DNA of 42,196 nucleotides, taken from assembly GCA_947624775.1 (NCBI GenBank), contig CANQLT010000011.1:1-42196 (forward strand). The letters run 5' to 3'. The notes under the pieces were generated by a model. That model had not been told where the DNA came from. It did not search any database and saw only the letters and a list, made by a program, of their open reading frames with translations. Position 1 is the first letter of the stretch; each line of letters begins with the position of its first letter. Made by a program: the position numbers and the translations under genes. Below are positions 31,935 to 36,016 of the stretch, piece by piece. Source of the stretch: an uncultured Monoglobus sp. (GTDB lineage: Bacteria > Bacillota > Clostridia > Monoglobales > Monoglobaceae).

Positions 31935-32849
31935 ATGAAAACTGCGATCATTGATCTGGGCTCAAACTCGATCAGAATGGATATAGCGGATATAAACGAG
32001 GACAACGGCGATTACACCTACGCGGAGCGCAGGCGGATATTGGCGCGGCTCAGCGAGGGAATGGACATCGACGGCTGCCTTAGGCCTGAGGCGATCAAAC
32101 GGACGATCGACGCTCTGCGCGAGTTCAAAAAAATCATTGACAGACACGGAGTCAAGGATATAATAGCCGTCGCTACCGCGGCTGTGCGCGGAGCGGGAAA
32201 TCGCGACGAATTCCTGCGCAAGGTATACGACGAGACGGGTATAAATATCCGCGTGATAAAGGGCGAGCAGGAGGCGGAGTACGACTTTCTTGGCGTGACC
32301 TCCACTCTTGATATAGACGACTGCGTGATCGTCGATACGGGCGGCGGCAGTACCGAGATAATATTGGTGAACGACCGCGAGCCGTTGGCGCGCACAAGCA
32401 TCCCGGTGGGCGCGGTCAACATGACCGACAGATTTCTGTTCCGCGGTGAGAGCCCCGAGGCGCTGCGCGCCATGTCGGACTATATCAGCAGCTGCCTCGA
32501 TAAGGTGCATTGGCTGGACGACGCCGAGCTTTTTCCGATCGTGACAATGGGCGGCAGCATGTTCAATCTGGCCGTTGTGGAAAACGGGGTGCCCGGCATC
32601 AACCGCGCCGAGCTCCACGGCCACGAGATGTCTGCCGATTCGGTCAAGCAGACCTACGAGCGTATTCTCGATATGACCGAGACCGCCAGAGAGGACGTCG
32701 GCATAGAGCGCGGCAGGACCGATACTATCCCCGCGGGCGTCACTCCGGTTATAGAGCTGATAGACAAGATTGGAGCCGAGCGGGTGATTGTTTCCTCGGC
32801 GGGTCTCAAAGAGGGAATACTCGCCGAGTTTATTGAGGGAATAAGATGA
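31935..32849 (+). CDS. Ppx/GppA family phosphatase (exopolyphosphatase-like)
   Basis: A 304-residue protein of the ASKHA fold, comprising the two-lobe Ppx/GppA core without the C-terminal HD-like domain of longer forms. Phosphate-1 loop IDLGSNSIRMDIAD (6-19), VATAAVRGAGNRDEF, GEQEAEYDFLG and the phosphate-2 loop IVDTGGGSTEIILV are present, with MGGSMFNLA and the ending VSSAGLKEGIL. Members remove terminal phosphates from polyphosphate or hydrolyse pppGpp. The short form fits the Ppx2-type enzymes, so polyphosphate or a nucleotide could be substrate. ppk1 is in the same window (3301) but a different operon. Its stop overlaps the recQ start. Confidence 0.9.
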   Translation: MKTAIIDLGSNSIRMDIADINEDNGDYTYAERRRILARLSEGMDIDGCLRPEAIKRTIDALREFKKIIDRHGVKDIIAVATAAVRGAGNRDEFLRKVYDETGINIRVIKGEQEAEYDFLGVTSTLDIDDCVIVDTGGGSTEIILVNDREPLARTSIPVGAVNMTDRFLFRGESPEALRAMSDYISSCLDKVHWLDDAELFPIVTMGGSMFNLAVVENGVPGINRAELHGHEMSADSVKQTYERILDMTETAREDVGIERGRTDTIPAGVTPVIELIDKIGAERVIVSSAGLKEGILAEFIEGIR

Positions 32850-34699
32850 TGACAGATAAACATGAGATACTGAAGCATTATTTCGGACATACGGAATTCA
32901 GGCCGGGCCAGGAGGCGCTTATAGACAGCTGCCTCGGCGGTCGCGATGTGCTTGGGATAATGCCGACGGGTGCGGGCAAGTCGATCTGCTATCAGGTGCC
33001 CGCCCTTATGATGGACGGGATAACGCTGGTGATATCGCCGCTGATTTCGCTTATGAAGGACCAGACCGAGGCTCTCAGAGCCGCGGGCGTGCCGTGCGCG
33101 TGTATCAACAGTTCGCTTGAATACGGAGAGCTGTGTGATGTCTACCGCGCAGCCGCCATGGGAAAATACAAGATCATATATATCACGCCGGAGCGTCTGA
33201 CGAATGATGGATTTTTGAACTTTATTTTTGGCGCAAATGTGTCAATGGTGACGGTTGATGAGGCGCACTGCGTTTCGCAGTGGGGACAGGATTTCAGACC
33301 CGGATATCTGAAAATTGCGGAGTTTATAAAAAGCCTGTCCAAGAGGCCTGTGGTGAGCGCGTTCACCGCCACCGCCACGGGCGATGTGCGGCACGACATA
33401 ATAAATCTGCTGGAGCTTGAGGATCCGCTGGTTAAGACCACGGGATTCGACCGAAAAAATCTGTATTTTGAGGTGAGGCGGCCGAAGCCTTCCAAAAAGC
33501 TCGACGAGCTGATACATTTTTTAAACACCCGCGGTGCGGGCAAAAGCGGCATAGTCTACGCTCTGAGCCGAAAGAATGTGGAGAGCGTCTGTGATGAGCT
33601 GTGCGCCCGCGGCATAGCGGCGACACGGTACCATGCGGGCCTGAGCTCCGACGAGCGCAGGCGCAATCAGGAGGATTTTCTGTATGACCGAAAAACAGTC
33701 ATGGTGGCGACCAATGCCTTCGGCATGGGCATCGACAAGTCAAACGTGGGATTTGTTGTGCATTACAATATGCCCAAGAACATAGAGAGCTACTATCAGG
33801 AGGCGGGCAGGGCCGGCAGGGACGGCAGCCCCGCGGACTGCGTGATGCTTTATGCGCCCGGCGATGTGCGCAGCAACAAGTTTTTGATAGATAATACCGA
33901 AGAGAACAAGGAGCTGGCCGAGGAGGAACGCAAGCTGATGCGCGAGCGCGACTATGAGCGCCTGAAGCAAATGACATTTTATGCCACGACAGATGACTGC
34001 CTGCGTAAGTTTATACTGAACTACTTCGGCGAGGAAGCGCCGAGCGAGTGCGGAAACTGCTCAAACTGCCGCGAAAATTCCGAGTCGGTGGATATTACCG
34101 AGCCGGCCAGAATGATACTTAGCTGCGTTATGCGGCTTATCAGGCAAAACACGCCCTACGGCAGGCTTATGATAGCCGACATAATGGCGGGCTCGGAAAA
34201 CGAAAAGATAAAAAACAGGGGCCTGAATAAGCTTTCGACCTACGGTCTGCTTAAGGATTTTAAGAAAAACAGGATAATGCGCATAATTGACCGCATGATC
34301 GAGCTTGGATATATGAAGATCGACGATGAGCGCCACGGCGTGGTTGTCCCATGCCGAAAGTCGGCGCCGCTGCTTCGCGGCGAGGAAAAGCTGACAATGC
34401 GCCTACCGAAACCGCGCCCCGAAAAGATCGTTAAAAAGCGCACGGACGGGGACGCTGACGGCGAACTTATGGGCGAGCTCAAGGCGCTGCGGCTGGAACT
34501 GGCGAAGGCGCAGAGCGTGCCCGCGTACGTGGTATTCACTGACGCTACGCTCCGCGAGATGTGTGCCGCCCTTCCCGAGACTTTGGAGGAATTTTCTGAG
34601 ATATCGGGCGTGGGTGCCGCCAAGCTGAGACGATACGGCGAAGTGTTCGTTGATCTTATCAGTCAATACAAAAACCGAAAAAAACCTGATTTGGATTAA
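32846..34699 (+). CDS. recQ: ATP-dependent DNA helicase RecQ
   Basis: RecQ unwinds DNA 3'-5' in recombination and fork repair. The 617-residue protein has all parts: the RecQ motif 0 region FGHTEFRPGQEALID, Walker A PTGAGKSICYQ, DEAHCVSQWGQDFRP, TATA motif III, and the C-terminal helicase lobe with GMGIDKSNV and QEAGRAGRDG. The zinc-binding cysteines are TDDCLR and ECGNCSNC, followed by the winged helix. A HRDC domain is present at about 535-605 (VFTDATLREMCAALP, ISGVGAAKLRRYG). The start uses ATGATGA overlapping the ppx stop, so translation is coupled. 27 bases separate it from mtaB. Confidence 0.96.
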   Translation: MMTDKHEILKHYFGHTEFRPGQEALIDSCLGGRDVLGIMPTGAGKSICYQVPALMMDGITLVISPLISLMKDQTEALRAAGVPCACINSSLEYGELCDVYRAAAMGKYKIIYITPERLTNDGFLNFIFGANVSMVTVDEAHCVSQWGQDFRPGYLKIAEFIKSLSKRPVVSAFTATATGDVRHDIINLLELEDPLVKTTGFDRKNLYFEVRRPKPSKKLDELIHFLNTRGAGKSGIVYALSRKNVESVCDELCARGIAATRYHAGLSSDERRRNQEDFLYDRKTVMVATNAFGMGIDKSNVGFVVHYNMPKNIESYYQEAGRAGRDGSPADCVMLYAPGDVRSNKFLIDNTEENKELAEEERKLMRERDYERLKQMTFYATTDDCLRKFILNYFGEEAPSECGNCSNCRENSESVDITEPARMILSCVMRLIRQNTPYGRLMIADIMAGSENEKIKNRGLNKLSTYGLLKDFKKNRIMRIIDRMIELGYMKIDDERHGVVVPCRKSAPLLRGEEKLTMRLPKPRPEKIVKKRTDGDADGELMGELKALRLELAKAQSVPAYVVFTDATLREMCAALPETLEEFSEISGVGAAKLRRYGEVFVDLISQYKNRKKPDLD

Positions 34700-34726
34700 T
34701 CAGCGCTGCTAAAGGAGTGACGTAAA

Positions 34727-36016
34727 ATTACTGTAAAATTTATCACACTGGGCTGCAAGACCAATCTGTACGAGAGCGAGGCAATGGCCGAGCTGTTCAG
34801 AGAGCGCGGCCACGAGGTCATAAACGGCGCGAAACCGCCTGCCGATATCTGCGTGATAAACACCTGCACCGTTACGGGCACGGGCGCGGGCAAATCGCGG
34901 CAGGCAATAAGGCGCGCCAAGCGCCAAAACCCGAACGCGGTCATAGCGGTGACGGGCTGCTTTGCCCAGACCGAGCCCGAGGCGGTTCGCGAGATCGGGG
35001 CGGATATAATAATCGGCAGCGGCGCCAAGAGCCGCGTTGTGGAGCTGGCCGAGCAGGCTGCGTTGGGCAAGGCCGCCGACATCGTGGGCGACATAATGCG
35101 GGAGCGGGAGTACGAGGAGCTGCCGCTCACATCGGCGCAGAGCCGTGTCCGCGCCAATATCAAGATCGAGGACGGCTGCGATAATTTCTGCGCCTACTGC
35201 ATAATACCATACGCCAGAGGCCCGGTGCGCTCTCGTCGGCTCGAAAATATAACCGCCGAGGCCGAGGCGCTTGCCGCACGGGGCTACAAAGAGATCGTGC
35301 TGACCGGTATACATATCGGCTCATACGGCAAGGATTTAAAGGACGGCTCGCTGATCGATGTTGTTGAGGCGCTTGATAAAACAGAGGGCATTGAGCGGAT
35401 ACGCCTCGGCTCGATCGAGCCCCCGGTCATCACAGAGGAATTTATTAAAAGAGCGTCCGCGCTCAGGCATTTGTGCCCTCAGTTCCATATGTCGCTGCAG
35501 AGCGGCTGCGGCGCGACGCTCAAGCGCATGAGGCGGCGTTACACTCCCGACGAGTACATGGCGGCGGTCGAGGCGCTCAGAACCGCGATACCCGACACGG
35601 CGATAACAACCGACCTGATGGTGGGCTTCCCCGGCGAGACCGACACAGAATTTGAGGAATCCTATCGTTTCTGCGAAAAAGTCGGATTCATGCGGATGCA
35701 CATATTCAGGTACTCCGTAAGGCGCGGAACGGCGGCCGAGAAAATGCCGAATCGGGTGAGCGAGGCTGTCAAGGAAAGGCGCGCCGCGGAAATGCTGAAG
35801 CTGGCGGAGCGAATGAAAAACGAGTTTTATGAAAAATATAAGGGCAAAAGGGTCTCGGTGCTGCTCGAACAGCGAGACGAGGAAGGCATCTATCACGGAA
35901 CCACCCCGAATTACGCCGACGTTTATTTAAAAGCGCCTCCCGGCATGGAAGGGCGAATCGTTGAGGTCGAGTTTGAGCCCCGCGGCGAGAGCAGGATAAT
36001 AGATCAAAAAATATAA
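34727..36016 (+). CDS. mtaB: tRNA t6A37 methylthiotransferase MtaB, starting at ATT
   Basis: MtaB adds a methylthio group to t6A at position 37 of tRNAs that read ANN codons, using radical SAM chemistry. The family N-terminus (FxTLGCKxNxxE) is encoded from 34727 on: FITLGCKTNLYESEA, with cluster cysteines C10, C47 and C78. The radical SAM motif is GCDNFCAYC (C151, C155, C158), and a TRAM domain ends the protein (429 residues). The frame has a stop at 34718 and the only initiation-capable codon before GCK is ATT at 34727, nine bases after AAAGGAG (34711-34717). The first in-frame ATG (34784) would delete cluster ligand C10. The ATT start is therefore strongly inferred. nadE follows 10 bases later. 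Confidence 0.93.
   Translation: MTVKFITLGCKTNLYESEAMAELFRERGHEVINGAKPPADICVINTCTVTGTGAGKSRQAIRRAKRQNPNAVIAVTGCFAQTEPEAVREIGADIIIGSGAKSRVVELAEQAALGKAADIVGDIMREREYEELPLTSAQSRVRANIKIEDGCDNFCAYCIIPYARGPVRSRRLENITAEAEALAARGYKEIVLTGIHIGSYGKDLKDGSLIDVVEALDKTEGIERIRLGSIEPPVITEEFIKRASALRHLCPQFHMSLQSGCGATLKRMRRRYTPDEYMAAVEALRTAIPDTAITTDLMVGFPGETDTEFEESYRFCEKVGFMRMHIFRYSVRRGTAAEKMPNRVSEAVKERRAAEMLKLAERMKNEFYEKYKGKRVSVLLEQRDEEGIYHGTTPNYADVYLKAPPGMEGRIVEVEFEPRGESRIIDQKI

Follow-up and report, generated by a model that had tools for sequence, protein, structure and literature searches.

Where does translation of mtaB begin in a Monoglobus genome whose copy of the gene encodes an essential cysteine upstream of its first ATG? 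A sequence-only reading of the window (the whole 42,196-nucleotide stretch analyzed here, contig C11 of a 182-contig assembly that is 96.26% complete) had proposed that the gene starts at ATT. In profile searches, the window protein scored 436.8 bits against the MtaB equivalog model TIGR01579 (cut-off, 357.05) over residues 5 to 414, while the MiaB and RimO models scored under their own cut-offs. The UPF0004 domain (PF00919, 85.8 bits) and the radical SAM domain (PF04055, 90.9 bits) were both matched, the CxxxCxxC motif was present as CDNFCAYC, and the Pfam TRAM domain gave no match at an E value of 0.001. By TIGR01579, the gene is mtaB, predicted to make ms2t6A37 in tRNA. The gene upstream is presumably RecQ-like, a name that comes from reading its protein. 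Features of the locus are collected in Table 1.

Table 1. Features at and around the mtaB start on the window
Feature	Position	Strand	Basis
Upstream RecQ-like gene (presumed name), ending 27 bases before ATT	32846..34699	+	ORF list
Shine-Dalgarno (SD) sequence AAAGGAG	34711..34717	+	core-to-start spacing 8; duplex about -10.6 kcal/mol
Out-of-frame GTG (GTG ACG TAA), corresponding to the GTG that relatives have in frame at -9	34717..34719	+	sequence
In-frame TGA, rules out an upstream start	34718..34720	+	sequence
mtaB, tRNA t6A37 methylthiotransferase, 429 aa from ATT (predicted)	34727..36016	+	TIGR01579, PF00919, PF04055
ATT, inferred mtaB start codon	34727..34729	+	conservation, SD geometry
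TGC, codon of Cys10	34754..34756	+	alignment to Cys27 of MiaB chain 7mjv_A
First in-frame ATG	34784..34786	+	sequence; the ORF lister also starts here

Layout of the start region

The region reads AAAGGAG, TGA, CGT, AAA, ATT, and then ACT GTA AAA TTT ATC ACA CTG GGC TGC AAG ACC AAT. The window sequence bears out the initial claims that the TGA closes the mtaB frame, that ATT follows AAAGGAG by nine bases, and that the codon for the essential cysteine precedes the first ATG. A further claim, that ATT is the only initiation-capable codon in this interval, held for ATG, GTG, TTG, and ATT but failed for a wider set of codons, as the frame also holds ATC 34742, CTG 34748, and CTG 34766 ahead of the ATG. 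In SD scoring, the SD core stood 23 bases from the first and 29 from the second, and the third had no SD; for none of the three is an SD suitably placed. Because no other start retains the N terminus with an SD in place, ATT 34727 is favored as the start.

The geometry of this SD is ordinary. Of 29 window genes, 25 had an SD that could be scored, and their core-to-start spacing peaked at 7 to 8. Among ordinary starts in 91 ortholog pairs, with spacing limited by design to 4 to 11, 53 of 182 values were 8 and 41 of 182 were 7. The spacing between the SD core and ATT in window mtaB equals this mode. Its duplex ranked at the 46th percentile of 170 starts; the strength is only average, and a specially strong SD is not supported. 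Together with the TGA, AAAGGAG gives GGAG-TGA, which is the extended SD GGAGGTGA minus one base, and the mtaB gene of G020 carries an exact AAGGAGGTGA 8 bases from its ATT. The 16S tail GGATCACCTCCTTTCT was found twice in G002, the one single-contig genome of the genus set, and in none of the 11 remaining genus genomes, which are fragmented. The 90 bases around the mtaB start folded less well than shuffles (z = 1.17), and no structure is claimed. Elsewhere in the window, the gene frame from 25405, which has a strong SD (GGAGGTGA), carries TTG at the aligned start in the window and in G008, and ATG in G009.

Conservation and codon-level selection at the start column

Comparison of the start codon in close relatives, which the sequence-only reading had suggested as a check, was carried out across the genus. 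mtaB was present in 12 of 12 genus genomes and ATT occupied the start column in every one, including the single-contig G002, so that independent assemblies close the escape of a corrected sequence with ATG or GTG at this place. The window genome belongs to a five-species clade (G000, the window genome, with G003, G010, G008, and G007) in which the other proteins are 91 to 95% identical to that of the window. All five carry the in-frame TGA at -9, and none has an ATG, GTG, or TTG ahead of the conserved TLGCKTN motif, though G003 has a TTG within it. The remaining seven genus genomes (65 to 74% identity to the window protein) have GTG in frame at -9.

Conservation extended beyond the genus. Matches to mtaB were obtained from 36 of 38 genomes in the family set (all except G021 and G025), with ATT at the start column in 20 genes, ATC in 1, ATA in 1, and ATG or GTG in 13; G031, with ATG two codons before the column, is the fourteenth ATG/GTG gene. 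ATT at this column also occurs in four genera beyond the Monoglobus genus set. In a wider set of 80 mtaB loci from genome contigs, which overlaps the genus set, the motif was readable in 75: 10 Monoglobus-group loci had ATT or ATC, and the 65 others had ATG or GTG, 62 of these at the same column and 3 one or two codons earlier. Among the readable loci, Clostridium mtaB typically had AGGAGG nine bases upstream of ATG. The order set yielded a match in 44 of 51 genomes, and seven of the eight outside the family had ATG or GTG near the column. In G048 (L186), from another family of the order, mtaB may start at an ATT one codon earlier (-3), with a GTG nine bases upstream of it. The tree required starts to switch between the ATT type and the ATG/GTG type at least four times; as far as these sequences indicate, the history of the ATT start is not one clean origin or single switch.

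Selection at the codon level was consistent with translation from ATT. Within the five-species clade, codons 1 to 19 after ATT included six that varied synonymously only and none that changed the amino acid, which argues that this N terminus is translated. Codon -2, upstream of ATT, varied among Arg, His, Gln, and Asn. The ATT itself looks constrained at the nucleotide level, because a rare Ile codon is fixed and few codon changes fall on the tree. At 12 other invariant-Ile columns in genus mtaB, ATT was the rarest codon (17 of 144, versus 65 ATA and 62 ATC), and a single codon was likewise fixed at only one of them (column 198, ATC). Over all invariant-residue columns of genus mtaB, a single codon was used at 12 of 181. 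Among the 22 ATT/ATC/ATA genes of the family, the start column required 2 codon changes on the tree versus 4 to 8 at five other invariant-Ile columns. Ortholog conservation, SD geometry, and purifying selection on the first 19 codons all support the proposed ATT start, as does use of the same column as an ATG or GTG start in sister genera and Clostridium. Taking these data together, window mtaB is very probably translated from ATT 34727, read as fMet.

The upstream GTG and competing readings of the start

In the 17 ATT/ATC/ATA genes of the family outside the five-species clade, a GTG lies in frame at -9 with no stop between it and the start column. Counting the out-of-frame copies, GTG stood at -9 (17 genes) or -10 (5 genes) in all ATT/ATC/ATA genes versus 1 of the 14 ATG/GTG genes. 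Two histories fit this association: a weak start codon may need an extended SD, or a true GTG start may have freed an old ATG to drift. In our reading, the GTG at -9 is a decoy: gene callers would take it for the start and overlook ATT. It would form part of an extended SD (GGNGTGA) rather than a start codon, and in the window clade a one-base register change would have moved it out of frame, exposing ATT. Before ordinary genus starts, GTG peaked at exactly -9 (26 of 170, with every other offset at or below 8), as expected if GTG belongs to the extended SD GGAGGTGA.

The strongest competitor holds that the 17 relatives start at the GTG, with ATT a plain Ile codon, and that only the five-species clade of the window fell back on ATT after the one-base change. 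The uninterrupted frame in all 17 and the codon association above both favor it, and in G004 and G009 the alignment can be read as a GTGA overlap with the TGA of the upstream frame that resembles coupled starts. However, this GTG either overlaps the SD core or lies right beside it (spacing of -1 or 2, with no SD of its own in g9), whereas ATT sits at a spacing of 8. Exchange of the GTG for ATG or TTG was absent from the 17 genes, although 8 of 15 non-ATG start pairs differed between two species, and G034 keeps the same GTG at -9 even though its start column is itself another GTG. Fixation of a rare ATT would be left unexplained, and in the five-species clade the gene could not have survived a frameshift just after a true GTG start; the same change would be harmless if ATT is the start. 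We therefore regard a GTG start in these relatives as unlikely. The end of the upstream RecQ-like frame varied among loci: it lies 27 bases before ATT in the window, L006 and L008 use the TGA at -9, and in L010 and L011 the stop is a TGA that overlaps the GTG. Given these end points, the SD lies in or next to the last codons of that frame.

The remaining readings concern the window gene itself. Initiation at the out-of-frame GTG 34717 with a +1 shift (GTG ACG T AAA ATT), or readthrough of the TGA, would give a product M-T-K-I-T-V-K, similar to the M-T-E-I-T-V-K that relatives would make from a GTG start. The codons after this GTG varied across the five species (ACG TAA, ACA TAA, ACA AAA, AAA TAA, and ACA TAA), the GTG sits within the SD, and we know of no precedent for a frameshift within two codons of initiation; with no conserved shift site, frameshift and readthrough were ruled out as extremely improbable. 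A shorter protein from ATC 34742, CTG 34748, or ATG 34784 is highly improbable. A chance GAGG lies 2 bases from ATG 34784, the first of the standard start codons, but this ATG was rejected since starting there drops Cys10; the poor SD placement of the ATC and CTG codons and the lack of amino acid change in codons 1 to 19 of the clade also stand against a shorter product. As for a sequencing or assembly error at ATT, or a decaying gene, the window assembly is fragmented, yet the same codon in all 12 genus genomes excludes a base error, and third-position differences exceeded those at first and second positions ∼3.4- to 5.5-fold in all ten pairs of the five-species clade. This last reading is next to inconceivable. 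Returning to initiation at ATT, the start is real and probably an expression-limiting feature rather than a sequencing error.

Precedents, infC, and a possible link to IF3

To our knowledge, reliable AUU starts in bacteria are few. One of the genes concerned, pcnB, encodes poly(A) polymerase. The accessible text of PMC9410913 gives AUU as the start of both infC and pcnB in Escherichia coli, and that of PMC6097659 gives ATT as the start of infC in Bacillus subtilis. In Staphylococcus aureus, AUU (cvfC1) and AUA (ccpN and infC) starts with extended SDs are described as giving, in one medium, about 10% of the expression obtained with AUG, and the cvfC1 and ccpN starts were mapped by Ribo-Ret, according to the available portion of PMC13009471. 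Like mtaB, cvfC1 and ccpN are Firmicute genes with conserved non-canonical starts; their SDs are extended (same portion of PMC13009471), whereas that of window mtaB is average in strength. The infC genes of the three species likewise pair an AUH start with an SD and conserve it between species. Window mtaB shows the sequence hallmarks of an AUU-initiated gene: AUU occupies the column where orthologs start, none of the standard start codons would retain the protein, the SD lies at the usual distance, and the start codon is conserved between species. Titles and abstract openings of literature on AUU/ATT starts, IF3, Monoglobus, and MtaB contained no mention of an ATT start for mtaB. This kind of start is thus already known (infC, pcnB, cvfC1, and ccpN), and mtaB is a new case in which the decoy GTG of relatives is instructive.

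By analogy with these systems, we infer that mtaB translation may be low and IF3-sensitive. SD pairing would hold the 30S subunit on an AUU start codon disfavored by IF3, and fMet-tRNA would initiate there with the help of the SD, at a reduced rate and under IF3 discrimination. In E. coli pcnB, the AUU presumably holds down translation of an enzyme that modifies RNA, as the accessible text of PMC9410913 has it; pcnB is an unrelated gene of another lineage, and its start was tested experimentally in E. coli. Streptomyces sigR, with an IF3-repressed GTC start, also uses a rare start codon for IF3-mediated control (available portion of PMC5472188), though codon, gene, and phylum all differ from those of mtaB. 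The product of infC regulates its own gene. MtaB, in contrast, modifies tRNA, and an influence of IF3 on mtaB would have to be exerted in trans. B. subtilis MtaB makes ms2t6A, and according to the accessible part of PMC5372745 its loss had no known phenotype, as would fit a gene whose low expression is tolerated. The ATT start raises a testable link between IF3 and tRNA modification. An AUU start was isolated here by comparative genomics alone, with the one-base register change in one clade serving as a natural experiment that separates the true start from the decoy GTG. Starts of mtaB may be miscalled in related genomes, and an SD-embedded GTG followed nine bases later by a conserved ATH offers a filter for hidden non-canonical starts.

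A similar arrangement was observed at infC. In all 12 genus genomes (L134 to L145; for example, L140:1501-2013, minus strand), a GAGGTG-type SD (GGGGGTG in L134) is followed by six bases and then ATA, with an in-frame GTG at -9. Read from ATA, the protein aligned with solved IF3 chains, in the best match from residue 4 onward, and genus infC appears to start at ATA. mtaB resembles it in having a non-canonical start (ATT versus ATA) and a GTG at -9. A tentative proposal, which we hold to be rather doubtful, pairs mtaB with infC in Monoglobaceae as IF3-sensitive genes that share conserved non-canonical starts and an SD-embedded GTG. If true, the IF3 level would set that of the enzyme adding ms2 to t6A37, tuning decoding by t6A37-bearing tRNAs, and the GTG at -9 would conceal the pair from annotation in most species.

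Hidden starts were surveyed in 115 gene pairs, comparing part of G008 (about 375 kb) plus the window with part of G009, a design that infC-like genes carrying GTG in frame may escape. When 113 of these pairs were scanned again, no further convincing ATT-type case emerged. ATT starts as a general habit of the genus were rejected, as this partial survey held no second clear case. mtaB alone combined a fitting SD with coding conservation reaching far ahead of the first standard start; most of the remaining flagged pairs appeared to be conserved SD and leader stretches or, in one mutS-like gene, an overlapping upstream frame.
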